In this document: positions 1-31,967 of the stretch, piece by piece
Position numbering within the stretch: position 1 is the stretch's first letter
Layout: each line of letters starts with the position of its first letter
Virus record (IMG/VR): IMGVR_UViG_3300017788_000102
Span: 1 to 31,967 of that record
Strand: one strand, 5' to 3'
Length of the DNA stretch: 31,967 bases
Source of the DNA: a virus
The notes under the pieces: generated by a model
The model's database searches: none
Seen by the model: only the letters and a program-made list of their open reading frames with translations
Told to the model about the DNA's origin: nothing
Translations under genes and position numbers: made by a program

Positions 1-3000
1 CTGCCTGTCACTGGAGTCCATATTGCTTAGGGCCTGCCCTACGCCAGCGATATTTCCTCCCAACTGGAATCCTGATTCTAGGAAGTTCGCTCTTAGAAAC
101 TCTTGGGTATTCTTTACACTCTCGGCTTTTCCAGCATCTATGGTCTTTCCCAATTGTGTTCCAACCAGAGCGTAAATAAGGTCCTCTTGACCTCGAAGGG
201 CACCATTTTCTTGGGAGAACGCTGTCCCACCTCTGCCAAATAGTTTATTAAATTCTTGGTCGGCCAACATCATGTCGCCGCCATAGAGGGCACCCAAATT
301 TTGTCTAAAATTCTCGAAATATGTCAGTAGGGATTCGGTCATCCCATCTTGTGCCTGAGCGTTAAAAATGTCTCCCTTAAGGAATTCATTTATTTGTCCA
401 CGAACGGCAAAGGTCTCCTCATCAATTCCTCTTTTGCCCTCTCTGGCCTCTCGTTCTGTTCTGAATACATCCGTTCCGGCGGCGAATACGTCAGCAGCAG
501 CATGGCGTAACTCCTGCGTTGTGTTGACCATTGCCTCAGCCAGTTTCATTACTTGTTCACGCGTAGTCTGCGCACTATCGTGGAGATTTACGCCGACAGT
601 ATCAGCCAATTGCCTAATTTCTAATTCTGTTTTGCCAAGTGATGCTGCGATGCTGCCAGCGCGCTGGTCACCAAACTGTGTTACGAGGTCAAATGCCGTT
701 GCCTGAACTTCGTTAATTTCTCGTTGAGCAGCAATGAAGGCATCGGGGTTTTTCATGGCCTCTTTAAACGCTTCATCGCTTAGTGAGCCAAATATTCCCG
801 TACCTGTCATCTGTTGTTTCTTGGCCATTTCCTTAAGTAACCCGCTATCCATGATGTCGTAGCCTTCAAGGTCGAGGCGTGCAAGGTCTGCAGCATTCCT
901 GGCGCCTCTTATATAATTGGTATCCGGTGCTCCAGTAGCACCGTGCGCTAGCGCACTCTTACCTCTTCTATTGAGCGTGCCCATAATGATGGCATCAAGT
1001 TGGGCTCCTCGGTCCCTAAACTCATTCATGCGTGTTTGCCGCATGTTCTGCATCGACTCTTTTGTGAGGGTGCCTTTTTGTATCTGCTCGCGCATCTTGT
1101 TCTGATACGAACCAACAACACTCTCCATGAAATCCTGAGCCTGTTTCTTGGCCTCGGCAATCGCCTCCTTCTTTTTGCGTTTTGCAGCACCACGAATTCC
1201 CATAATCGCACCGCCAATAACGCCGACGGCAAGGCCAGCAAGCGGATTAACCATCGCAATAGAGGAGCCAAGCGCAAGTGCCCCCTGTGACTCCTGTGGC
1301 ATTACATTGGAAAGCAGTCCCAGGCCAAGGCTTGCCCCCATCCCCGCCATCATTGAGTTATTGATACCCTTTCTCATGACAGGGTTATCTTTGGTACCCA
1401 CGTTTCCACCGAACGTCGCCTTGTACGCATACGAGTCACGCATTTGGCGACCACGTTGCGTAAAACCCCGAAATTGAGCCATCGGCCCTGGTCCGATGCC
1501 CGCAGCGGCCCTACGTTCCATTTCTTCATTTTTCATCTGAGCGCGCTGCTCTGATGACATGCGAAAATTTCTCGTGAAGAAACTATTCTGAAACTCTTTG
1601 TCTGGGGCATTGCCATATGGGCTATATGTAGGGAGACTTATGGTTCCGCGGCGTGCTTCAAACTCCGCTTTTCGCTCACGACGAAGGTCTCTGTATGCGC
1701 CGAATTTCGCAAAGCCACGCGATTCGTCATACCGCCTCTGTGCGGCTGACCGCGCGTCCTGAAGTCTTTGTTCGTTTTTGACTGCCTCTGTTTCGGCATT
1801 TCGTGCCGACCTTGCCGCCGCGCTTCGGGCGAACTGCCTATCAAGTCGTTCTTGCTTCTCCCTTTTCGAACGTGCTGTTGCTGTCGGTTTATCCGACGAA
1901 CTCATTACGGTCATGCTTCTAACACTCATGTTTGCAACGCTCTGCTTATTTATGGTTGCTGCAGCCTTGGCGAGTTGCGCCGCTCGCTTCTTTCCTTCTT
2001 CGGTGACGTTTCCTGCTGCGGTCTGTCCTGTTAGTAGACCACCGCCAGCAGTAGTGACGTCCTTCATTCCATATGAGGCCAGTACGCCACCAGGAGTTTT
2101 CTTCATGGCTCGGCCACCAACGAGCAACTTGGCAATGAGCATAAATGAACCAAGCCCACCACCGCCAAATAGGTCCCTGAACCCACCGAGAAGACTGAAA
2201 AATAGGTCAACTATTCCGGTCAAACCGTTAATTATTTTGGTAAGGAATGGCAGAGCATCAATGAATATCTCCCGAACTACTTGTGCGTACTTGGAGATAA
2301 CCGCGACAAACTGGCCAATTGCATCACCAAAGGCGTAGAACTTCTCCTCATTGGCTATGAGTTGCTCGTTGAAGGTACCAAACGCTTCCGACAGGTGGGC
2401 GCCGATTGGGCGCAGCACCCGCATCAATGTCTCTTCAAAGACCTTTGCCCCCGCGATAAGAGGGCGCAATTTATCCAGAATCGCGTTCCAGCCCTCTTTG
2501 AAGCGGTCCCACCAACGTCCAAGACCCGCGAACATTCCATCTACTTTGGGCAGATAGTCGCGTATAAAGTTTACGAAGAATTCGCCTGTTTTTTCTGTGA
2601 ACTCGGCTACATCTTCAAAAAATCCAGCATGAGCAAACATTGCAATTTCGCCAGATACTCTGTCGAATGTGCGCTTGAAGGTGCGCGAGATATCCTCAAG
2701 TAGGTCCTTCGTGGGCTTGAGGAATTGCTCACCAAAGTCAGCAAAATCACTTACAATAATTGCAAATGTTGCCTTGAAACGACTAATAAGCGTTCTATTG
2801 ACTGCATCAAATTGACCCTGAACTCCACCTGCCGCAGAAAGCGTTCCATCAAGGATGGCTTTCTTCAGTTGCTCCGCAGTCTTGATGCCCTTGCCACCGG
2901 CTTCCTTCAGCGCCTTCTCCATTTCGGGCCCCAGTGCCTTGGCTGCTTCACTGATTTGGCCGAATGTTGCTTTGGGGTCCTGCAATTTGGCGATGAGTTC

Positions 3001-3645
3001 GCCAGCCGCCTTAACGCCTTCCTCCAGAGGCTTTCCGGCACTCGCAAAGTCCATGAGGCCCTTTAGGAGATTCGCTGAGCCCGCAGTGAACGTAGAGGTC
3101 TTGGATACGGCGGCGAAAGCAGCCTGCAGATTTTGCGCACCGACTGACGCCATGTCGGCATCAGAGGCAAGTTGTCGCATCAGCACGGATGCTGCTTGAT
3201 AGTTTCCCCCACCCTTGAAGGCATACATAGCCATCTGTTGTTCGCGTATTGCCGCTGCTGCCGTTGAGACAGCCACCGTAAGTGCAGCAGCCGCTCCGGC
3301 CGCTCCGGTCGCAATCCACCTGAATGCCTTCATCGTGGCATTACCGAGAACAAATGCGGCATGAACTCCCATCATCGCGGCACCAAGAAGCCCGATTTCT
3401 AGGGCGGCAAATTTGGCACTCTTTGTTACCAACTTGGTAAGTGCTCCACCCAACATTTTGATACCCTTATCTATGGCGTCAAAGTGCTGCTTCCACCTAA
3501 CATTCGTGGCTTTAAGACTTCTGGTGCTGATTGCGTTATAGCCCTGGATAACGGCCTGCAACTTCAGGAGTTTGCGTGTTACCGAGTCGATTGACCGGTC
3601 GCCAATAGTCTTTACCCTGAGAGTTAAAGTTGAAGTTGCGGCCAT
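1..3645 (-). CDS. tail tape measure protein (3' end outside window)
   Basis: Tape measure protein, which sets tail length and occupies the tube lumen. The frame is open from ATG 3645 to base 1 (1215 codons visible) with no stop, so the C-terminus lies beyond the left edge. GAGAGGTGG lies just upstream of the ATG. Seen: a basic N-terminus, a long Ala/Gly-rich hydrophobic stretch at about residues 80-133, further hydrophobic patches near 475-510 and 770-815, and long Glu/Lys/Arg/Gln-rich segments between and after them. No peptidase or lysozyme motif was seen in the visible part. Length, low complexity and position directly after the chaperone pair are typical of the family. It is the last visible gene of the leftward tail operon. 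The assignment rests on architecture and context, not on a catalytic motif. Confidence 0.88.
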   Translation of the reverse strand, partial: MAATSTLTLRVKTIGDRSIDSVTRKLLKLQAVIQGYNAISTRSLKATNVRWKQHFDAIDKGIKMLGGALTKLVTKSAKFAALEIGLLGAAMMGVHAAFVLGNATMKAFRWIATGAAGAAAALTVAVSTAAAAIREQQMAMYAFKGGGNYQAASVLMRQLASDADMASVGAQNLQAAFAAVSKTSTFTAGSANLLKGLMDFASAGKPLEEGVKAAGELIAKLQDPKATFGQISEAAKALGPEMEKALKEAGGKGIKTAEQLKKAILDGTLSAAGGVQGQFDAVNRTLISRFKATFAIIVSDFADFGEQFLKPTKDLLEDISRTFKRTFDRVSGEIAMFAHAGFFEDVAEFTEKTGEFFVNFIRDYLPKVDGMFAGLGRWWDRFKEGWNAILDKLRPLIAGAKVFEETLMRVLRPIGAHLSEAFGTFNEQLIANEEKFYAFGDAIGQFVAVISKYAQVVREIFIDALPFLTKIINGLTGIVDLFFSLLGGFRDLFGGGGLGSFMLIAKLLVGGRAMKKTPGGVLASYGMKDVTTAGGGLLTGQTAAGNVTEEGKKRAAQLAKAAATINKQSVANMSVRSMTVMSSSDKPTATARSKREKQERLDRQFARSAAARSARNAETEAVKNEQRLQDARSAAQRRYDESRGFAKFGAYRDLRRERKAEFEARRGTISLPTYSPYGNAPDKEFQNSFFTRNFRMSSEQRAQMKNEEMERRAAAGIGPGPMAQFRGFTQRGRQMRDSYAYKATFGGNVGTKDNPVMRKGINNSMMAGMGASLGLGLLSNVMPQESQGALALGSSIAMVNPLAGLAVGVIGGAIMGIRGAAKRKKKEAIAEAKKQAQDFMESVVGSYQNKMREQIQKGTLTKESMQNMRQTRMNEFRDRGAQLDAIIMGTLNRRGKSALAHGATGAPDTNYIRGARNAADLARLDLEGYDIMDSGLLKEMAKKQQMTGTGIFGSLSDEAFKEAMKNPDAFIAAQREINEVQATAFDLVTQFGDQRAGSIAASLGKTELEIRQLADTVGVNLHDSAQTTREQVMKLAEAMVNTTQELRHAAADVFAAGTDVFRTEREAREGKRGIDEETFAVRGQINEFLKGDIFNAQAQDGMTESLLTYFENFRQNLGALYGGDMMLADQEFNKLFGRGGTAFSQENGALRGQEDLIYALVGTQLGKTIDAGKAESVKNTQEFLRANFLESGFQLGGNIAGVGQALSNMDSSDRQ

Positions 3646-3673
3646 TGGCCCCACCTCTCAATAAAGGCTTCTA

Positions 3674-4930: not shown

Positions 4931-6472
4931 TCATACCACCGAGGTGGAAAGATTGGACTTGATGATGTCAACCTGGATTGAATCCCCAATACCTGATACT
5001 CGCATACCGACCCTGGCGGTTACTGTGCCGTTGACAAGTTGTGCGAGTGGGTTGAGTGCTTCGTTGCACTTCACCGTGTAGCCGAAGTCAATCCGACGTC
5101 CGGTGATGTCAAAGGCCTCATATAGGGCACCAAGGGTGCGCAGGGGCTCCATGATGGCGACAAGACGAGCCTCAACCGAGGCAAAGATTCCGCCACGACC
5201 ATCAATGACACCGAACAGAACATCCTCAAGCGTGCGGTTGGCCTCTACGACAACAAAGTTGACAACGTCCTGCGCGTTGATGTACCGGAAGTTCTGTGTG
5301 TCAATCGAGCATGAACGAGCGCCATAGATGCGAACCCGATTATTGATGATTCGGATTGCATTAACGCAGTCATCATCGAGGGCATCACCAGTGGTCTTAT
5401 CCACCGATGCATACACTCCGTTAATGAAGCGAGCATCCGAGATGATTCCAGCACCGGGCTGATGTGGTCCAACCTGGTTATGGGCGCGAGCACGTGCTCC
5501 GGCAGCATATCCAGTTGGTGGGATTGCGCGATTGACGCCACTCACGCCAGTTGGCGCATATACCCAGGGATAGAACACACCGACATGCTCGGAGTGGTCG
5601 AGTGCCTGAATTGCGCGAGCGACGGTACGTGCCTCGGCTGCGGTTGCTGATGCTCCTGCATGAATAAACGCAAGGCGGTTATATGTATTGGCGTGCGTGA
5701 TAAGTGCTGCAGTTAGGGTATTTAGTGCACTTGACGAGTACGTCTCTGGAACCTCTGGGCATGCAACAACGCCAGTTCCATATGAGTCTAGGAATAGTTC
5801 TAGGGCCGAGATGTACTGCGCATTGGTTACTGATGATGTTCCGTTCGTTCCACCTGAGAAGGCAGTAATGCTGCCTGCGGCTGGCATGGTATCGGCCGTG
5901 GCAGTGCTGCCAGCATTGGTCTCGACAGCAGTCAGGTATAGCGAAGCAACTGGGTGGGCATTGATTTTGCCAACAATTTCTGCAGTAGACGCACATGCGC
6001 CCGTTGTCATGATAAGGTCGCCGTCTAGGTATAGTTTAACGATTCTCTTTGCGGTATCGGCAGCCTCATCAACATCTACATGGAGGCCGGTATATGAACC
6101 AGCAGAACCAGCACCATTGGCCCAGGTTCCAGGGCCATCTACGGTAAGAGTGACGGCAGTGGTGGGGGTAGCGAGTGAGTTCGCCAGTGTCGCGGACGCT
6201 GCTGCCGCTGCCGCTCCAGAGATAAAGCCTTCAACTCGGACGACATAGCACTGGGTTCCGCCCTCTTCAAAGAATGCCTCAACAGTTGGATGCAAGTATG
6301 TTGAGTCATAGCCGCCGTAGGAAATTTCAAATTCCTCAAGGCTGGTAACTAGGCGGGCTTCGTTGGTCGGGCCGCGCAGGGCCTCACCAACGAAGAATGC
6401 CTGCGATGACTCACGGACCGTTGAGTTGGACGGGCCAGTTCTTACTGCTGTTGAAATCTGAATACCAGGCAT
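4931..6472 (-). CDS. tail sheath protein
   Basis: Contractile sheath, 513 aa, a usual size. AAGGAAGG sits 6 bases before ATG 6472. The N-terminus MPGIQISTAVRTGP and the following FFVGEALRGPTNEARLVTSL are typical of sheath proteins, and EVPETYSSSA, GVFYPWVYAP and PPTGYAAGARAR are in the expected central and C-terminal core. The C-terminal half contains DDCVNAIRIINNRVRIYGARS followed by the strand region used for the handshake with neighbouring subunits. An Ala/Thr/Gly-rich insertion at about residues 105-225 is probably a surface domain. Presence of this gene makes the phage a myovirus. The 93-base gap upstream is the longest in this operon, so an extra promoter for sheath and tube is possible, but I see no clear one. 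Confidence 0.93.
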   Translation of the reverse strand: MPGIQISTAVRTGPSNSTVRESSQAFFVGEALRGPTNEARLVTSLEEFEISYGGYDSTYLHPTVEAFFEEGGTQCYVVRVEGFISGAAAAAASATLANSLATPTTAVTLTVDGPGTWANGAGSAGSYTGLHVDVDEAADTAKRIVKLYLDGDLIMTTGACASTAEIVGKINAHPVASLYLTAVETNAGSTATADTMPAAGSITAFSGGTNGTSSVTNAQYISALELFLDSYGTGVVACPEVPETYSSSALNTLTAALITHANTYNRLAFIHAGASATAAEARTVARAIQALDHSEHVGVFYPWVYAPTGVSGVNRAIPPTGYAAGARARAHNQVGPHQPGAGIISDARFINGVYASVDKTTGDALDDDCVNAIRIINNRVRIYGARSCSIDTQNFRYINAQDVVNFVVVEANRTLEDVLFGVIDGRGGIFASVEARLVAIMEPLRTLGALYEAFDITGRRIDFGYTVKCNEALNPLAQLVNGTVTARVGMRVSGIGDSIQVDIIKSNLSTSVV

Positions 6473-12986: not shown

Positions 12987-14912
12987 CTACTTGATGGGGC
13001 AGGCGCCGGTGGCACAATCGTCCAATTCAACTGCACCATCAAATGCCGGACGATGAAGTGACACGCCAAAATCAATTTTGGCCAGCATTTTGTCGTATGC
13101 ATCTTTGCTAATTTCTTCGTACGGAGGAAGTGGGAAGTTGTGGTCCGAGTGCAGTAGGAATGATACCGATTTTACCGAGTTGTCATAGTTCTTGGCAAGC
13201 CAATCCTTGATTTCCGCAAGTTCTTCCTTGCGGTAATAGACCGTAACGGAGACAGCGTTATCTGCCCATTCTGTCTGCATCTTCTTCACCCACTCAAGTT
13301 GAGCAACCGCAGTCATGCTCTTGGCAAGAACAGAGCCTTCTGGTGACTCGCATGGGAATTCCACAACGAAACGAGTATGGTCCTCTCGTCCGTCAATGCC
13401 AACATCATATTGGACCTTGTAGCCACGCTTGCGACACGCATCAACCAGGGGGTCAGATGAGCCAAAGCGAACTCGGCGGATGTAGTGGGGGGCAAATGCG
13501 GGGTGAATTCCAGGAGTCACTCCAGGCAGTAGGGACAATGTACCTGAGGGCTGAACTGTTGTCAGACGTACTGATGTGGGCATGCCATTTTCGGCTGAGT
13601 AATCTTTGTCAAGAGCCTCAAGGTACTCATATACAGGTGACAGCCAAGAAATTTTGTCCTCTGAACACTGCAAAATACCAGTAATAGACTGACCGAGTCG
13701 CGCGTTCTTCTGCACAATCTTCGTGGTCTTCTCGTATGGATAGTTCATGCGAGTAATTTGCTTCTGTGTCTTGTACAGGAGGTAGGAAATGTCCTTGAAC
13801 TGCTCTAGTGACTCGACGTTGGGCAGGAAGATTGTAGAGAGGTTGCAGGATTCACCGTCACCTAGTGCAATTTCGGCGCAAGGGTTATAGCCCTCAATGG
13901 TGGGGTCTGGCTTTGCCTGACCGATGCGACCATACTTGCGCGCCAGGCGACGATTTACGAGGCCGTAAGGCTCGCCGCTGCCGTCATAACCACGCCATAG
14001 TTCGGGAAGAATCTCCTCATAGGCATCGGCATAGATGCTGTTATTGCTGTTGGCTCGCCAAGCGGGAATATTGCCCGTACCCCAGTTCTTGGCACGGAGA
14101 AAAAGAACGTCATCGGGGTCGCCAATGGCAATCTGGGCAGAACGACGTGATGAGCCCGACACGACGACGCGACCGATGATGTTGCAGATATCCAGAACGT
14201 CAATGGACCGCAACTTCTTGCCGATACGGTTGTCCATCACCTTGCAGATATCGGCAATCCCGTCAATGAGTGCCCCTGGGCCAGAGGCCGTCCCACCAAA
14301 AGTCTTGAGCGGTGCACCAAATTCACGAATGAGAATTGTTGAGTAAGAGAATGACTTGCCGGTCTCAAAATACGACTTAAGAACGGCATGCAGCAGACGA
14401 CGCCATCCTTGGCGCGAGTCTGGAACAATGATGTCGGCATCGTTTGAGCGTTCGTGTGAGATGGAAACCCCACCCTTTACCTTGGGTAGGTCGTGAATTT
14501 TTGCTCGCTCAACCGAGAAACCAACGCCACCACCAAGCATGAGGTAATCAAAGAGCAACTCAAAGTCTTCGACTGCCTCAATGTTCACGAAATAGCAATT
14601 GTTTAGGCTGGTTCCGGAGAATTTCTGCGTAAGTGGTGTTCCGAGTTGCCACAAAGAGCGGCCCGAGAATGAGCATCGCAGATTGAAAAGGTGGTCAAAG
14701 AGGCGCTCGGCCTCATCCTGCGTATAGGGAACCCCAATGTCAATAGCGCCATTGATGACACGCTGAATCGTTTCGGGCCACGACTCAGTGTCGCCATTTT
14801 CCTTCTTGCGACTGTAGGTGCGCAAGAAAACAATTTCCCCCATGCCATTGAAGCCCCATGGCGGCGTTTGCAGCGAATATGAACGAACAATGGCATCATC
14901 AATGCGAGACAT
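12987..14912 (-). CDS. nrdJ: adenosylcobalamin-dependent ribonucleotide reductase, class II monomeric type
   Basis: A 641-aa enzyme reducing ribonucleotides to deoxyribonucleotides, giving the phage its own dNTP supply. AAGGA precedes ATG 14912. Catalytic residues: Cys106 in SLNNCYF, Cys345 in NPCAEI (thiyl radical site, with Glu347), Cys356 in ESCNLST, and the C-terminal redox pair Cys633/Cys638 in DCATGACPIK. The substrate-site loop VQPSGTLSLLPGVTPGIHP is intact. The N-terminal order and length fit the Lactobacillus RTPR-type enzymes, somewhat shorter than the roughly 740 aa of the bacterial reference, and resemble phage homologues. It needs B12 cofactor from the host and no small radical subunit, which agrees with none being seen. 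No thioredoxin gene is seen next to it. Confidence 0.95.
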   Translation of the reverse strand: MSRIDDAIVRSYSLQTPPWGFNGMGEIVFLRTYSRKKENGDTESWPETIQRVINGAIDIGVPYTQDEAERLFDHLFNLRCSFSGRSLWQLGTPLTQKFSGTSLNNCYFVNIEAVEDFELLFDYLMLGGGVGFSVERAKIHDLPKVKGGVSISHERSNDADIIVPDSRQGWRRLLHAVLKSYFETGKSFSYSTILIREFGAPLKTFGGTASGPGALIDGIADICKVMDNRIGKKLRSIDVLDICNIIGRVVVSGSSRRSAQIAIGDPDDVLFLRAKNWGTGNIPAWRANSNNSIYADAYEEILPELWRGYDGSGEPYGLVNRRLARKYGRIGQAKPDPTIEGYNPCAEIALGDGESCNLSTIFLPNVESLEQFKDISYLLYKTQKQITRMNYPYEKTTKIVQKNARLGQSITGILQCSEDKISWLSPVYEYLEALDKDYSAENGMPTSVRLTTVQPSGTLSLLPGVTPGIHPAFAPHYIRRVRFGSSDPLVDACRKRGYKVQYDVGIDGREDHTRFVVEFPCESPEGSVLAKSMTAVAQLEWVKKMQTEWADNAVSVTVYYRKEELAEIKDWLAKNYDNSVKSVSFLLHSDHNFPLPPYEEISKDAYDKMLAKIDFGVSLHRPAFDGAVELDDCATGACPIK

Positions 14913-24976: not shown

Positions 24977-27034
24977 ATGGCCTGGAACACAAGTGACAAC
25001 AAATCCCTCGGAAATGGTGGGCAGAAAGTAGCCTTGGGGCCCGGCGGTTTAGTCGCGCAGAATGCCTCCTACGCTGGAAAGGCCTATCGCGACCCATGGG
25101 ACATTGAGCGCGCCTATCGCGAGGGCATGCAGAAGGTCACCTGGGTGTCACGCTGCATTGATGCAATTGCAGGAAACCAAGCACGCCTGCCAATCATTCT
25201 TCGACGCGACAATTCGCCAGAGGGCAGCATTGTCAGGAACAAGGGTGGCAAGCAAAAGGGAATTCTTGACATCTTAAATACTAAGAGCAATATTGGAGAG
25301 AACTCCTTCATTTTCCGCTACCGCATGTCGTCCCAGTTGCTCCTCGGCACCCGAGGGGTATTCATTGAAAAGGTCCGGGGGCGAGATGGCGGCATCATTG
25401 GCCTAAACCTCCTCCCGCCCCAATCAACGGCCCCAATCCCCGACCCCAAAGAATTCGTTTCGGGATACGAGGTATTGATGCCGAATGGTGACAAGGTAAT
25501 CATGAAGCCACGGGATGTTGTGTGGATTCGCCGCCCACATCCGCTTGACCCCTACTTGTCACTCACCCCACTTGAATCTGCTGGCATTGCCGTTGAGATT
25601 GAGAATCTTGCCAAGTTGTACAACCGTAACTACCTCCTGAATGACGGCAGGCCTGGCGGACTGCTTGTTTTGCGCGGGGAAATTGACGATGACGACAAGG
25701 ACGAACTGCGCAATAGGTTCAGAGGGAATCTGGGCAAGGTTGGTCAGACTTCGGTTATTTCCGCCGACGATGGTGTTGATTTCGTTGATACTTCGTCAAA
25801 CCCACGTGATGCTGCCTACATTCAGATGCGTCAAATAACCAAGGAGGAGATTCTTGCCTCATTCGGCGTGCCGGAATCGGTCATTGGCAATGCCGCTGGA
25901 AGGACATTCAGTAATGCCAGTGAGGAAATTCGTGTTTTCTGGAATGAGACAATGGCCCCCCACCTGGAGGTTCTGGCTCGCGCACTAGATGAATTGGATG
26001 ACGACCACTATATTGACTTTGATACCTCAGATGTTCCTGTGTTGATTATGGCCAAACAGGAATCAGAGCGTTATCTGATGCAGGAATTACAAGCAGGGCT
26101 CATTAGCGTCAACGAGTATCGTCTTGGCACGGGCCGCAAGGATGTTGAGGCAGATTTGGCCGATAGTTTGCTAATGAATCCAAACCTGACACCAATTGCA
26201 AATACCAAAAAGCCAATGCCGACACAGCAGCCGGGCATGCCCATGCCGGGTCAGGGTGGACCTCCAGGGATGCCAGGGATGCCAGGGATGCCGCCAGACG
26301 CTGGTGCTCCACCTGCTATGCCTGGAATGCCCCCTGGTGGAGACATGTTGGCGTTGCCGCCCGAGATGGCTGGCGGCGCGCCACCCGACCCCACGACGAT
26401 GGCTGGAGCAATGGCCCTCGAATCAATGGGCGGAGCCGGACCGGGCGCACCGGGAGCAGGCGCGCCACCAGGAATGTCAATGGCTGGCGCCAGCGGTTCA
26501 GAAATCTTTACCAAGGATGACTCAAGCGACATGGCCGTCTCTCGCTGGACAGAAATTCTGGACCGAAGTATTGAGCGCGTTTTAGAGAGAATGCAACGAG
26601 TCGTTCTCGAGAAGATGAATGGTCAAAAATCCCGCCGTGCCCTTGCTTCGGGGGGCCTGGACATAGACTCAATCGTAAGCAAGGACACCTGGTTTAAGCA
26701 GTTGGACGAGGATGTGAAGCCAGTTCTGGCAACAATTGTCCGTGATTCCCAAAATGTCTATGGTGAAAAGTCTCTAAATTACAAGGCCCCAACCAAGAAC
26801 GATATTGCCGTCAACTCCGAATCACAAATGGCACGCATTAAGTCACTTGTTGATGGAATTTCTGCGGAGATTGCAACATCAATCTTCAATTCATATGGAA
26901 TACCAGGTGAAGAAGAGAGATATTCTGCATTACGGTCTTCTGTCAATATGATTTTTGCTGATGCTATTGCCAATTCTCGTCCGGCAGTTGCAGATAGGGA
27001 AGCCCGTCGAGCCTGGGATTTTAGTCGGCCCTAG
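24977..27034 (+). CDS. portal protein with Gly/Met/Pro-rich linker
   Basis: A 685-aa HK97-type portal forming the dodecameric ring at the packaging vertex. Core: GLVAQNASYAGKAY, WVSRCIDAIAGNQARLPI, ILLGTRGVF-like segment with GTRGVFIEKVRG, the stem helix EILASFGVPESVIGNAAG, and FSNASEEIRVFWNETMAPHLE, typical of the family. A region at about residues 410-510 is low-complexity, rich in Pro, Gly and Met, including GMPGMPGMP from a 9-bp triplication. The last 175 residues (RWTEILDRSIERVLERMQRVV, then KDTWFKQLDEDVKPVL) are helical and could be a scaffold-like or MuF-like extension. Standard portals are nearer 450-500 aa. Confidence 0.9.
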   Translation: MAWNTSDNKSLGNGGQKVALGPGGLVAQNASYAGKAYRDPWDIERAYREGMQKVTWVSRCIDAIAGNQARLPIILRRDNSPEGSIVRNKGGKQKGILDILNTKSNIGENSFIFRYRMSSQLLLGTRGVFIEKVRGRDGGIIGLNLLPPQSTAPIPDPKEFVSGYEVLMPNGDKVIMKPRDVVWIRRPHPLDPYLSLTPLESAGIAVEIENLAKLYNRNYLLNDGRPGGLLVLRGEIDDDDKDELRNRFRGNLGKVGQTSVISADDGVDFVDTSSNPRDAAYIQMRQITKEEILASFGVPESVIGNAAGRTFSNASEEIRVFWNETMAPHLEVLARALDELDDDHYIDFDTSDVPVLIMAKQESERYLMQELQAGLISVNEYRLGTGRKDVEADLADSLLMNPNLTPIANTKKPMPTQQPGMPMPGQGGPPGMPGMPGMPPDAGAPPAMPGMPPGGDMLALPPEMAGGAPPDPTTMAGAMALESMGGAGPGAPGAGAPPGMSMAGASGSEIFTKDDSSDMAVSRWTEILDRSIERVLERMQRVVLEKMNGQKSRRALASGGLDIDSIVSKDTWFKQLDEDVKPVLATIVRDSQNVYGEKSLNYKAPTKNDIAVNSESQMARIKSLVDGISAEIATSIFNSYGIPGEEERYSALRSSVNMIFADAIANSRPAVADREARRAWDFSRP
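26264..26290 (+). repeat. 9-bp tandem repeat in portal linker
   Basis: Three perfect copies of CCAGGGATG, coding Pro-Gly-Met, inside the portal low-complexity linker. The count could vary between strains through slippage without shifting the frame. Confidence 0.85.
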
Positions 27035-27140: not shown

Positions 27141-28529
27141 ATGAGCGACTCAGTGCAGGAACAAATTAATTTCAAAGCCCTAAATGGCCAGGTCAACATA
27201 GATGAAGCACAAGGAATTGTTGAATGCTTTGTTGCTGCCGTTGGCAATAAGGACTCTGTCGGTGATGTTGTCGCGACTGGTGCGTTTAATGAAAGTCTGA
27301 AACGCCGTAAGCCTCGTGTCGTATGGGGGCATAGTTGGAATGACCCCATCGGCAAGGTGCTTGAAATTTACGAAGTACCGTCCAGTGACCCCCGCCTTCC
27401 AGCAAAAATGAAGATGGCCGGTGTTGGTGGTCTCTTTGCCAAGGTGCAGTTCAATCTGGCGACAGAAAAAGGGCGCGAAGCCTTTGCGAGCGTGGCATTC
27501 TTTGGCCATGAGCAGGAGTGGAGTATCGGCTACAAGACGCTCAACGCCACCTTTGACCCACAGGCACAGGCAAATGTCCTGCATGAGGTTGAGTTATATG
27601 AGGTGAGCCCTGTTCTGCATGGCGCCAATGCATTGACGGGAACCATCTCTGTCAAGAGCGACGAGGGTGATAAGTGCGGAATGCCAGATGGCCCTACTGC
27701 GGTAATGACCCCACGTGGTCCAGCCATCGTTGGTCGTCCAGTTCTTCCACAAGCACCCGTTCGCCATTATGGAGAACACCACCGCGAATACTCTCGCAGA
27801 CGTGAGGACATCTTTGCCGAGGGGGAGGCTCGCCAGTTGCCGGACGAGGCCCTGAATGCCCTATCAATGGAACTAATGAGTCGCTCCCGCTCACGGCTAG
27901 ATGTTCTTTATGCAACAGAAAACTCTGTTGTCTTTAATCGTGATGCGGGCAACGGCAATATGGTCACCTATCGGCTGGGTTACCACTACGACATTGACTC
28001 CGGGGAGTACATGTTTGGCAAGCCAGAGAAGATTGGCATACGCAACGAGGAAAGCCGCATGCCATCAGCAACCGTCTTTTCGCCTCAGATGCCTCCTATG
28101 CCGATGAGCGTAAAGCCCCAAATGGGGATGCCTAGCGGTTTGATGTTCATGGCCAGCGGTGGAAAGTCACTGGATGAACAGATGCACGAGGCTGCAAACA
28201 TAATCTTTGATGTGACAACGGGCGCTGGAACTCTTCCCGCAGACAAAATAACTCGCGCCATTGAACTCCTGGAGTCGCTGAAGCCAACGGCCGCTAAGTC
28301 GCAGGAACAAGAGGTATTCACGGTCCTGTGCACCCCGGTAGAGGCATACCATGTCAAGAGCCTGTTGGACCCCGTCATTGATTACCACCGCCTTGATGCT
28401 GATATTGACGACGAGGGCATTCACATTAGTAATGGTCTCACCGAGGACGCGATTACCGCCCTTGAGCGAGTCGCGGCATCAATAGACGAGGTTCTCTACG
28501 GCAAGGCCGGTGGTTCAAAAAAATTCTGA
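27141..28529 (+). CDS. prohead protease (HK97 type) with long C-terminal extension
   Basis: A 462-aa capsid-maturation serine protease. TTGGAGCAAT precedes ATG 27141. Catalytic-region motifs: His64 in VVWGHSWNDPIGKV, Ser128 in EQEWSIGYKTL, and LYEVSPVLHGANALTGT near 175-190, typical of the U35 family. The protease part is about 200 residues; the rest is an unusual extension, with a Pro/Met-rich segment near 310-340 and a final alpha/beta part (EVFTVLCTPVEAYHVKSLLD, then GLTEDAITALERVAASIDEVL), which may act as a scaffold. The last codons are TCA AAA AAA TTC TGA: a slippery heptamer two codons before the stop. See the frameshift entry. Confidence 0.88.
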   Translation: MSDSVQEQINFKALNGQVNIDEAQGIVECFVAAVGNKDSVGDVVATGAFNESLKRRKPRVVWGHSWNDPIGKVLEIYEVPSSDPRLPAKMKMAGVGGLFAKVQFNLATEKGREAFASVAFFGHEQEWSIGYKTLNATFDPQAQANVLHEVELYEVSPVLHGANALTGTISVKSDEGDKCGMPDGPTAVMTPRGPAIVGRPVLPQAPVRHYGEHHREYSRRREDIFAEGEARQLPDEALNALSMELMSRSRSRLDVLYATENSVVFNRDAGNGNMVTYRLGYHYDIDSGEYMFGKPEKIGIRNEESRMPSATVFSPQMPPMPMSVKPQMGMPSGLMFMASGGKSLDEQMHEAANIIFDVTTGAGTLPADKITRAIELLESLKPTAAKSQEQEVFTVLCTPVEAYHVKSLLDPVIDYHRLDADIDDEGIHISNGLTEDAITALERVAASIDEVLYGKAGGSKKF

Positions 28530-28553
28530 CGCCCGACTTTCCTGAGTCAGGGC
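28517..28553 (+). other. candidate programmed -1 frameshift site (A AAA AAA plus stem-loop)
   Basis: Seven A's at 28517-28523, read A AAA AAA in the protease frame. A 7-base spacer with the stop TGA follows, then a stem-loop at 28531-28553: GCCC and GACT pair with AGTC and GGGC, with a single bulged A and a six-base loop TTCCTG. Heptamer, 5-9 base spacer and stem are the three standard elements. The frame entered is exactly -1 and open to the right edge. Confidence 0.75.
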
Positions 28554-31500
28554 TAAATGCCGAATTGAAACAACTCGGCCCAAAGGTCGGTCGGCGCCTA
28601 GGTGGTGGCTTGCGCTCGGCTGGACCCGGCATGGCATTTGTTGACGTGACTGGTCGAGTCGACGCCGACGCTGACGGAATTGTCTTTGAAGGAACGCCCC
28701 TAGAGCGGCCAATTATCCCACGTTTTATAGTTCCCAAGAACCTGGCACGTCGTCTCGCAAAGTTGACCGAAGGCGATGCTGTTGAGATTGAAAATCAACG
28801 CAGGGCAGGCAACGTCAATATTGAATTCGATGAGACAAAACTACGTTCACTTATTGGGCAAGTTGACGGTGGCCCAGAGGAACTACAGGACGCACGTACT
28901 CAAAGAAGCCGTCGTTCAATGCGAAGCATACGTGAGCGCATTCCCCTGGGTGATGTGATTGATAGAGAGGTAGACAAAGACGAACCAGACTATGAGGAAC
29001 TAGATACTTATCAACGAGACCAGGTCTGGCAGGACATCCGGGGCAAACTTAAAGAAAAAATTATGTCTATGGGGAATTGGACGCCGGACCAGATAAAGCG
29101 CATCGAGGACCAGGTGCATAACCTAGTTTCGAACCTGGAGCAAATGAGAGACCGTTGGGAGTTAATGGGACGCCGCGAGCGGCGTGGACTCCTCAGGAGA
29201 GAGCGGATTGTGGATGGATTTGAATCACATCCCGATATAGACCTCACTATAGAAGATATTGTCAAACAATCAGAAATAAGAATTCATGATGATGGAACAA
29301 TTTCACTCAGACTTCCCCCTAATAAAATTTTGCGCTCCCTGCTACCGGGAGATAGGGATTACCACAATACTGAAATACCTGACGCACGCACCCTTCGGCC
29401 AATAAGGGACGATATCAAGAAGACGACAGACGCAAGACAATGGTATGACCTTGTTAATTCGTTTTTCCCCGATGATGGCTCCGCGAGCCCCAGCCTGGCT
29501 AGATTCCCAGTAGTAAAGAGTGAGCGTTTACCATTTCATGACCTCTTTTCGGTTAAATATCAAGAAAAGTTATTTAGGGCTCGTCCAGAACGAGAAGACG
29601 CAATTTTGTTGCGTGCAAATGAGATTGCGGCAAAAATTCTTAAGCATTATGTGATTCCCGAACTAGACAAAATTAAGCGTAATCAAGATGCCAGAATCGG
29701 CGCCAAAGCCAGCAATACAGAAAATTACACCAATGGATATTTGCGTCTTCTGACCGACCCGCATTCTTGGCAAAGTATTTCTCAAGAACTGGAAGAAGCG
29801 GGATATCTAGTAGACCCACTAACAATGTTGCACGATGTTCTTGGACACCACGCACTGGGCAACACTTTTGACCGCCATAGCGAATGGGGCAATATTCTTG
29901 CTACGTTGTCGCTTGCTAGAGATAAGGAATTTTGGGACCGCTTGCGGCAAATTCCAGGACTAGAGGACCTAACCGACGAGGACAGAGAAATATACTTGCG
30001 TGGAACGCTCGCTGTAGTTGCCGCCAACTGGATTGCTCTTGTTGTCAGTCCGCAATTGAGGTCCGAATTCAACCTTAAAACAATTTCTAATGCCCTACTC
30101 GATTATGACGGCCCAATTGATGACGTCATCGACCGCCTAGACCCGCCAGAAAAGCAGGGCTCAATGAGGTCGACTCGGTCAATGTCGCTTGCGGACACAT
30201 CCGATGATGACCTGAGCAATATTGCTCTCGGTTCTGTTGAGGGCATCTCAATCAGAGAAGAGCGCCTATCTGCGCCACCGGAAAAACGAGACCGAAGCCT
30301 CCTGGGCAAGCGTAGCCAGCGAACACAACGCTCGCTTAGGTCCGGGAATGTTGGGTATGCCAAGAAATGGGAAGCGCAAGCCAAACTTGAACTTGCAATG
30401 GAAAAGAAATTGGCCAAAAAGCGCAAAGAAAGAAATCGGACGCTTTTGGATTCGGTCACAAGAATACTCTCAACAGACCTAATGGGGGCAATTCATACTG
30501 CAAGTTTTGAAGACGAAGAGTATATTGCCTCTGGTGGAATTAGTGCTGTTCAGTATAGAAATAATCTATTGGGTCGATTGGCTGTTGATGCAGAAACAAT
30601 CGATAACCCACTATCAACCAATGGCCGCGCATCTCTGTCGGAGATGGAATTTAGAGATTTGGAGTCATTGTTAGTAGAGTATGGCCAAAAAATAGAACCC
30701 CTCTCCACCGAGCAGCAACAATTGGTCATTGCCCTACGTGCAGCAATTAAAAAACTTGAAAGGCCAGCAAGGAGGCAAAGAAAGGGCGGTAACGAGAGAA
30801 GCCTGCCATACGAAAGAATTTCTGTCAAAGAGTTTTTCCAAGGGCCATACGGCAAAGGCTGGATATACCCAGATGGGACAATCTACCCAGTTCTGTTTTA
30901 TCACGGCGATGAGCATGACTATGAGGAATCATTTGAGGATGGCCTAATTCGTCTTACGGTGAATCATGCCGGTGTTTCCAGAATCGGACGTCCAAACTCT
31001 TCCAATCCTCTCTACTACGAGATTCCTGGCGATATTGGAATTGAGTTTAATGGACAACCAAGTGAAGATGCCATTCGTACGATAGAAACACTCAGCGAAG
31101 TAGTTGAACATGCGAAAATGTACTTCGACCGTAAAGACGGCAAAATGGCAAGTTGGATGCTGGAGCGCGACGATGTGTGGCGGATGGGTATAGAAGAGGC
31201 ATTGCAGCCACGGTCATCGCGCTCAATGCGCTCCTCTCGCCTCATTAGCGAAGATAAGTGGGTAGAGGAAAACAGGCGCCGCGTTAGAGAGGTTGCTGCC
31301 AAGGCGCAAAAATGGAAAGAAGACCGCAAGGAAAAGGGCCTCAAAAAGCACGCCAGCCTCGTGTCGCTCTTGAACACGATTGAAGAAGGTCTTGTTGATT
31401 CTCAACAAGAAGATGAGATTATTTCCATCGACAGAGTAAAAAGTTTTATTGAAGCAACAATTATTTACGATAATCCATATGCGGCGGTTCCAAAAGAAAT

Positions 31501-31967
31501 TCGCACAGAATTGCTCAGGCTCCTTAGTCAATATGGAAAGCCATCCGCAAAACGCGACAGTTTGCTAGACGACCTAAAGTCCACAATTGCTGGCCTAGAT
31601 ACATCCGTTCGTCCTCGCCGGGGGGCAAATAAGCGGCCATTGTCGTCAAAGACCCTGTCTGTTGAAGAATTCGCCAAAGGCTTCCACTGGGGGGCGTGGA
31701 TGTATCCAGATGGGTCGATTTACCCAGTTGACCGACATGAATTGGAATTTGATTACGACGACGCATTCGATGACGGAATGGTTCGGCTCATGACTGGATA
31801 TGGCGGCGACCTAACCGTTGATGCCGCAGAGTTGAGCGATGAGCAATTGGCTGCAGTCAAGAAACTTGTGAAGATTTGGAATGCCAGTAGCATCTTCACG
31901 AGTCGTGAACAATTAATTAAACGAAATCATGGGCGCTTCCCAGAGGGTACTCGCGCAATCGGATACA
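28523..31967 (+). CDS. giant modular polyprotein, -1 frame to protease (3' end outside window)
   Basis: The -1 frame is open from 28466 to the right edge, with no stop in over 1148 codons after the slip site. No good start exists near the junction: the first ATG (28631) lacks a ribosome binding site and lies within sequence that reads as protein on both sides. A fusion would be at least 1609 aa. Order: FVDVTGRVDADADGIVFEG and PRFIVPKNLARRLAKL; then a helical part; MLHDVLGHHALGNTFDRHSEW at about 29825, an HDxxGH pattern seen in large phage polyvalent proteins (from memory); then two copies of a YPDG module (30821-30957 and 31658-31792). RS-x-RS motifs lie at 28904-28927, 30158-30190, 30293-30346 and 31211-31240, between modules. 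The sequence is charged and probably internal to the capsid. Confidence 0.8.
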   Translation, partial: MLTPDFPESGLNAELKQLGPKVGRRLGGGLRSAGPGMAFVDVTGRVDADADGIVFEGTPLERPIIPRFIVPKNLARRLAKLTEGDAVEIENQRRAGNVNIEFDETKLRSLIGQVDGGPEELQDARTQRSRRSMRSIRERIPLGDVIDREVDKDEPDYEELDTYQRDQVWQDIRGKLKEKIMSMGNWTPDQIKRIEDQVHNLVSNLEQMRDRWELMGRRERRGLLRRERIVDGFESHPDIDLTIEDIVKQSEIRIHDDGTISLRLPPNKILRSLLPGDRDYHNTEIPDARTLRPIRDDIKKTTDARQWYDLVNSFFPDDGSASPSLARFPVVKSERLPFHDLFSVKYQEKLFRARPEREDAILLRANEIAAKILKHYVIPELDKIKRNQDARIGAKASNTENYTNGYLRLLTDPHSWQSISQELEEAGYLVDPLTMLHDVLGHHALGNTFDRHSEWGNILATLSLARDKEFWDRLRQIPGLEDLTDEDREIYLRGTLAVVAANWIALVVSPQLRSEFNLKTISNALLDYDGPIDDVIDRLDPPEKQGSMRSTRSMSLADTSDDDLSNIALGSVEGISIREERLSAPPEKRDRSLLGKRSQRTQRSLRSGNVGYAKKWEAQAKLELAMEKKLAKKRKERNRTLLDSVTRILSTDLMGAIHTASFEDEEYIASGGISAVQYRNNLLGRLAVDAETIDNPLSTNGRASLSEMEFRDLESLLVEYGQKIEPLSTEQQQLVIALRAAIKKLERPARRQRKGGNERSLPYERISVKEFFQGPYGKGWIYPDGTIYPVLFYHGDEHDYEESFEDGLIRLTVNHAGVSRIGRPNSSNPLYYEIPGDIGIEFNGQPSEDAIRTIETLSEVVEHAKMYFDRKDGKMASWMLERDDVWRMGIEEALQPRSSRSMRSSRLISEDKWVEENRRRVREVAAKAQKWKEDRKEKGLKKHASLVSLLNTIEEGLVDSQQEDEIISIDRVKSFIEATIIYDNPYAAVPKEIRTELLRLLSQYGKPSAKRDSLLDDLKSTIAGLDTSVRPRRGANKRPLSSKTLSVEEFAKGFHWGAWMYPDGSIYPVDRHELEFDYDDAFDDGMVRLMTGYGGDLTVDAAELSDEQLAAVKKLVKIWNASSIFTSREQLIKRNHGRFPEGTRAIGY

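Follow-up and report, generated by a model that had tools for sequence, protein, structure and literature searches.

A probable programmed -1 frameshift site in the prohead protease gene of a family of uncultured phages, predicted to join the protease to a giant polyvalent protein

Introduction

Does the prohead protease gene of this phage simply end at its stop codon, or can it also be read on into the far longer frame that lies behind it? The stretch of DNA analysed here (the window) comprises 31,967 bases of a virus record, and ORFs, folds and profile matches were computed on it. A portal protein gene (24977-27034, +; Pfam Phage_portal, 6.9e-45) is the upstream neighbour of a gene at 27141-28529 (+) whose 0-frame product of 462 aa is a prohead (capsid maturation) serine protease, as judged by its matches to Pfam Peptidase_S78 (8.5e-13; 49.2 bits, above the cut-off of 21) and to the PHROG head maturation protease (1.1e-26). 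Proteases of the S78 type work inside proheads. The ATG of the gene has a Shine-Dalgarno sequence, GGAG, 4 nt upstream, and a GGAG-type Shine-Dalgarno is also present at the protease genes of the relatives compared. The 3' end of the ORF reads ...GGT TCA AAA AAA TTC TGA, and a preliminary description of this DNA proposed that ribosomes shift frame there and so join the protease to a polyprotein, a reading that is supported by the conservation of the slip site and by relatives in which the two proteins are fused in frame.

Elsewhere in the window, inspection by eye suggested likely genes for a tape measure protein (1-3654, -), a tail sheath (4931-6472, -) and a ribonucleotide reductase (12987-14912, -), the likely sheath gene indicating a contractile-tailed phage. 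The 578-aa protein encoded after the giant gene is without a match to any capsid family, and the capsid gene lies far downstream: in the contigs G001, G003, G005, G010 and G012 an HK97-type capsid gene is found about 24-48 kb from the protease, with giant genes in between. In the Gordonia phage DalanDe the capsid gene and the protease are direct neighbours, and gp27 of this cultured phage (L139:8632-13533) has its S78 domain about 1120 residues into a protein of 1633 aa, that is, with a large extension N-terminal of the S78 domain in place of a C-terminal one.

Slip site, spacer and hairpin

The slippery heptamer A AAA AAA (28517-28523, +) stands in the slip phase X XXY YYZ relative to the protease 0 frame (TCA AAA AAA TTC TGA), and is followed by a 7-nt spacer (28524-28530, +) that includes the 0-frame stop TGA at 28527-28529; the positions at which the preliminary description placed the heptamer, the protease end and the spacer are all accurate. 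Its view of A AAA AAA as the strongest type of slip site was overstated, as in E. coli the most efficient sites are A_AAA_AAG, G_GGA_AAG and C_CCA_AAG (PMC4066793). An A7 by itself is not rare, since the window has five A7/T7 runs, and the case for this one is made by its phase, its position and its relatives. Every nearest relative in which the junction can be read (L002-L009 and L011-L017) keeps the A7, extended to A8 in L011; L010 stops short of the junction. The spacer is exactly 7 nt throughout this window clade. After the A7 the 0 frame of the nearest relatives meets a stop within 0-4 codons, and these stops are of three kinds (TAA, TAC TGA, or TAC AAG CGC CCT TAG), with the -1 frame open until the contig or the fetched stretch ends. 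The sequence GGTGG directly upstream of the A7 is also conserved in the window clade; it encodes Gly-Gly too, and its distance to the A7 is shorter than the 6-17 nt range that has been searched for Shine-Dalgarno-like stimulators (PMC4066793).

The spacer leads into a putative stimulatory hairpin, GCCCGACTT/GAGTC-A-GGGC (28531-28553, +), with a folding energy of -13.3 kcal/mol and a z score of -2.9, equalled in stability by 1 of 200 shuffles, while the wider fold around it has a z score of -3.5. A hairpin had already been noted at this position as a stem of 8 bp with a 6-nt loop; the hairpin stands, and RNAfold adds one U.G pair, bringing the stem to 9 bp, closed by a 4-nt loop and interrupted by a single bulged A. 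All eight of the pairs first noted are kept in seven of seven distinct relatives. The hairpin hardly varies within the clade, and its covariation there is not significant. In L012-L017 a different hairpin, GCCCTTAG...CTAAGGGC, with a 27-nt loop, occupies the site at the unchanged 7-nt spacing, and is not unusually stable for its surroundings.

The -1 frame

A TGA at 28463-28465 bounds the -1 frame, which then stays open from 28466 to the end of the window at 31966, and the first 1148 aa of a predicted giant polyvalent protein (28523-31966, +) can be read from the slip site before the frame runs off the window. Shuffling this region 300 times gave open stretches of at most 189 codons. The preliminary description was borne out in calling this frame open for more than 3.4 kb, and its figure of more than 1100 aa is right up to the window end; it is a truncated view, as the ORF is cut there and the giant protein of the nearest relative, G004, has 3388 aa. 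Among window-clade relatives the full second ORF, in the fetched regions, measures 3336-3472 aa.

Substitutions among the window-clade sequences show which frame is under constraint. Upstream of the site they peak at 0-frame third positions (167/63/656), and from +46 on the peak lies at -1-frame third positions (86/42/242 and 230/119/658). The stretch over the hairpin, +1 to +45, has lost the third-position peak, such changes being suppressed there. At the slip site, coding constraint in this clade leaves the 0 frame and passes to the -1 frame. The protein alignment runs unbroken across the junction, with GGSKKI.xPxF.ELGL.AESKALG in the shifted members against GGGSKKDRGASN...KALGG in the in-frame relative L018. 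The closely related proteases L018, L103, L089 and L129 are fused to the same giant protein in one frame, from which it follows that the fusion product is real elsewhere.

The giant protein might instead be the product of a separate gene whose translation begins beyond the protease stop, either on its own or by reinitiation. Such an organisation does exist in the L019/L163 lineage, where some 23 nt separate the protease stop from an ATG that follows AAGG; that lineage, however, is without the slip site. In the window, L016 and L011 there is an in-frame TTG with a Shine-Dalgarno-like sequence at codon 29, but it is missing in L002 and L013, and the one ATG with a wide distribution, at codon 36, has no Shine-Dalgarno in most members and is a Leu codon in L011. 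The preliminary description had found no convincing start for this frame and had named a separate Shine-Dalgarno start as the thing to look for: comparison of the window clade gave no start of the second ORF with a conserved Shine-Dalgarno. Since the -1 frame is moreover conserved from the slip site onward (KKI.xPxF), two independent genes are a very unlikely explanation.

It is less probable still, to the point of being hardly credible, that a sequencing or assembly error, or decay of the gene, has split an ordinary fused gene. The junction is a homopolymer, and in the sister clade L018/L103 both parts lie in a single frame, as such an origin would lead one to expect; yet the shifted state occurs in eight clusters from many metagenomes, with TAA, TGA and TAG stops at different distances, and the window-clade second ORF, where it is readable to its end, is intact (3.3-3.5 kaa) and under purifying selection.

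The junction across the family

The protease search yielded 60 loci, about 40 of which, outside the window clade, have the protease and the giant protein in one ORF; the enlarged set, all of it metagenomic, comprised 270 fetched records (some contigs more than once), which fell into 67 protease clusters at 90% identity. In 45 of these clusters the fusion is in frame and has a slip site, 8 are shifted, 9 are fused without a canonical heptamer, 4 have separate genes, and 1 is cut by the contig end. One of the heptamers A AAA AAA, G GGA AAA and T TTT TTA is found in slip phase at the protease C-terminus in 53 of the 67, against about 0.04 per 78-codon stretch elsewhere in these genes and none in the 17 loci that have the following motif without the protease, but the heptamers were picked after the first loci had been inspected, so that these counts describe conservation and are not a blind test. 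Where the junction encodes Gly-Lys it is written xxG GGA AAA in 26/26 clusters, as opposed to 3% expected from the genes' own codon use, although these clusters had been preselected for the heptamer, and the fair comparison is therefore with that 3% and with how rarely Gly-Lys is encoded there in any other way.

Throughout the 45 in-frame clusters the -1 frame closes quickly, after a median of 2 codons and at most 13, with a background of 8. In L018 and L103-L118, for example, the site reads TCA AAA AAA GAT/GGT, a -1 slip would meet a stop after one codon, and a 6-nt spacer precedes a GGGGCG...CGCCCC hairpin; in L089 and L129-L133 the site is G GGA AAA, the -1 frame is soon closed, and all have the spacer and hairpin, that of L133 carrying a UUCG loop. 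The slip site belongs to the family as a whole and in most members would work the other way round, a point that the preliminary description had missed.

Downstream RNA structure, of the kind expected about 5-9 nt past a programmed -1 frameshift site, is also common in the family. The mean hairpin energy at slip sites is -13.5 kcal/mol versus -5.2 in windows of the same genes, and in 45 of the 53 slip-site clusters the hairpin is within the top 5% of stability of own-gene windows. Compensatory changes in the stem, one of the checks proposed at the outset, are not significant in the window clade but are strong in one G GGA AAA group, whose 12 members have two-sided compensatory changes at 4/6 pairs with all cells paired (0/500 shuffles), and weaker in a second such group.

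These features also bear on whether the polymerase rather than the ribosome slips. An RNA polymerase slipping on the A run would leave an extra or missing A in part of the mRNA and produce the fusion without ribosomal frameshifting. The A7 of the window would allow this, the large related L022-L051 family has 10-13 A and no strong hairpin, and dnaX uses either mechanism depending on the bacterium (PMC3711429). Most of the family, however, has G GGA AAA at the homologous site, and because these members are without a long homopolymer, transcriptional slippage cannot explain them; the heptamer phase, and a compensating hairpin 4-10 nt further on, are in addition hallmarks of ribosomal slippage. 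For the window, transcriptional slippage is improbable, if somewhat less so than a pair of separate genes.

Several members depart from the common form. L024, L035 and the L022-L051 family have their 10-13 A at the homologous site, possibly a transcriptional-slippage form of the same switch. The lineage of L019/L137 and L163/L135 encodes the protease and the giant protein as two separate genes and has no slip site. In the nine fused clusters without a canonical heptamer (L322, L327, L331, L333, L334, L347, L356, L210 and L214) the switch has apparently been lost, or was absent. A cultured phage with the protease-giant-protein arrangement was not found, nor were homologues of the giant protein in cultured phages, and the protease matches to cultured phages covered 38% of the query or less among the 40 matches listed.

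Exchange of frames

Eight clusters, those of the window clade together with L216, stop in the 0 frame and would make the fusion through the -1 frame; in another 45 the fusion is encoded in the 0 frame, and a slip to -1 would give the protease alone. On a tree of 48 clusters the shifted state needs two changes, one in the window clade and one in L216, and well-supported branches force each of them; the branch leading to L216 is long, and the separation of L216 from the window clade is surer than its exact position. Its protease ends A AAA AAA GAAGAC GCGCCC TCG GGGCGC TAG, and its -1 frame stays open for 557 codons. This swapping of frames suggests that what is kept is having both products in some ratio.

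The giant protein and its domains

Polyvalent proteins of phages and plasmids are giant, multidomain proteins with components such as an ArdC N-domain, MPTase-PolyVal and helicase, for which transport together with the DNA has been predicted (Iyer et al. 2017, PMC5512222). The fused protein of the in-frame relative G011/L072 contains a UvrD-helicase, sigma-70 region 4, an ArdC N-terminal domain (1.5e-24), MPTase-PolyVal (9e-43) and WYL, a set of domains that is the polyvalent signature (PMC5512222). Within the family the cargo is variable in this "polyvalent" manner, with ArdC, metallopeptidase, helicase and NUDIX domains and a C-terminal domain that is usually conserved; the giant proteins of G001 and G003 have NUDIX, and that of G003 pentapeptide repeats. 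The window's own 1148 residues, the first third only, gave no Pfam or PHROG match and no polyvalent hallmark domain, and the full giant protein of G004 gave no Pfam match.

The giant protein of the window clade begins with a conserved head motif (D-x-D-x-DG...EG.P.ERP), continues with a variable part and closes with a conserved end domain. The head motif, LGGGLRSAGPGMAFVDVTGRVDADADGIVFEGTPLERPIIPRF in the window (28598-28726, +), is common to other giant proteins of the same phages, where it recurs as VDxTGxxDADxDGIVFEGxPxERPIIPRF (L111, L117, L119, L121, L127, L128 and L099), frequently behind some 210 aa of unrelated N-terminal sequence, and it may be a shared head-targeting or processing signal. 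A query with the first 306 aa of the giant protein found one relative only; a search with the alignment of its head motif found 61 loci. Two copies of a W(I/M)YPDG(T/S)IYPV...DG(L/M)(I/V)RL repeat occur in the giant protein of the window, at about 30848-30900 and 31690-31730.

A conserved domain of about 125 aa, upstream of which the window ends, lies at or near the end of the fusion in 22 of the 26 members examined, L216 and G004 included; G005, G007, G010 and G011 are without it. An AF2 model of this domain (L062:7202-7627, -, and homologues, alignment A3) has the order E-HH-E-HH with a pLDDT of 81. The domain has no Pfam match, and its best PDB match (E 0.03) is a designed protein; no convincing fold match supported a role as scaffold. 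A [GS][MLF][RA]S-like motif often stands directly upstream of it, and in L062:7202-17365 (-) SMRS/STRS-like motifs between blocks of the giant protein are possible processing sites. The idea of a strict cleavage site was dropped: PF05065 major capsid proteins are without the motif at the delta-domain boundary, and for this reason no cleavage consensus is claimed.

A proposed switch between free and fused protease

The A7 and its hairpin are, with high probability, a programmed -1 ribosomal frameshift site, part of a family-wide switch that would fix the ratio of free protease to protease-cargo fusion. At the level of sequence this reading draws on the slip site, the hairpin, the lack of a conserved separate start, the coding constraint on the -1 frame, the in-frame fusions and the frame exchange; slippage on the ribosome, and its efficiency, we infer. 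Ribosomes that read on would stop two codons past the A7 and release the S78 prohead protease, and those that slip back one base at A AAA AAA would enter the giant polyvalent protein and produce a single chain, protease-SKK-ILTPDF...-cargo-C-terminal domain. Most relatives would use the frames the other way round, straight reading yielding the fusion and slippage the free protease. The fusion probably carries its cargo into the prohead, where the protease would free it, the cargo then entering the host with the DNA; this step is proposed because S78 proteases act in proheads and polyvalent proteins are thought to be packaged and injected (PMC5512222). The low, fixed ratio and the entry into the prohead that the preliminary description put forward are likewise inferences.

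More broadly, we would give even chances to a recoding switch in a large group of uncultured phages through which the protease is produced either by itself or at the head of a multi-enzyme polyvalent protein that is injected, with selection acting on the ratio and not on the frame, at least two exchanges of frame, and the protease serving as both vehicle and releaser of the cargo. The principle of frameshifting is known; its use at a prohead protease and the swapping of frames appear new. The preliminary description had taken a protease fused by frameshift to be an undescribed arrangement, and in the open-access literature no published case of a prohead-protease frameshift was found, nor was one found in open-access work on polyvalent proteins and frameshifting or in surveys of bacterial frameshifts. 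For the entry of polyvalent proteins into phage heads, fusion to the prohead protease would be a direct and testable loading mechanism, and such loading at a tuned ratio would offer a handle for protein packaging in capsids. There is a practical side as well: automatic gene prediction breaks up or misassigns the protease gene of these phages, and for most relatives the short product goes unannotated.

Comparison with known systems

Joining a capsid protease to an assembly protein, with a separate shorter product, is known from the herpesvirus protease-scaffold fusion and from lambda C/Nu3. Those systems use separate promoters, internal starts or self-cleavage and not frameshifting, and the conserved C-terminal domain found here shows no evidence of being a scaffold. 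In retroviral gag-pol a -1 frameshift sets the ratio of the structural product to the long fusion; in the HIV type the protease is in the extension, whereas here it is in the short upstream product. Polyvalent proteins have been reported with an assemblin-like peptidase at their C-termini only (PMC5512222), and here the S78 protease is N-terminal and joined via a recoding site. The closest phage case is that of the tail assembly chaperones of the lambda type, G/GT, in which a -1 frameshift sets how much of a short structural protein is made relative to its C-terminally extended form (Xu et al. 2004, as cited in PMC5506516); the genes are different, the extension in the window clade is about 3,400 aa, and in most relatives the frameshift shortens the product.

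Of the known kinds of switch dnaX is the closest: it occurs in the same two organisations and slips by either mechanism (PMC3711429). Like the in-frame relatives, E. coli dnaX (tau/gamma) has a slip heptamer and a hairpin, and frameshifting gives a truncated N-terminal product with sequence in common with the long one; in some bacteria dnaX takes a two-ORF form in which recoding is needed for the long product, and ribosomal and transcriptional versions both exist (PMC3711429). As reported for dnaX, the pair of products appears to be conserved and the direction of the frameshift not. What sets the present system apart is that it concerns a phage capsid protease and a giant cargo protein, that its sites are G GGA AAA and A AAA AAA, and that the frame has been swapped twice inside one phage family.
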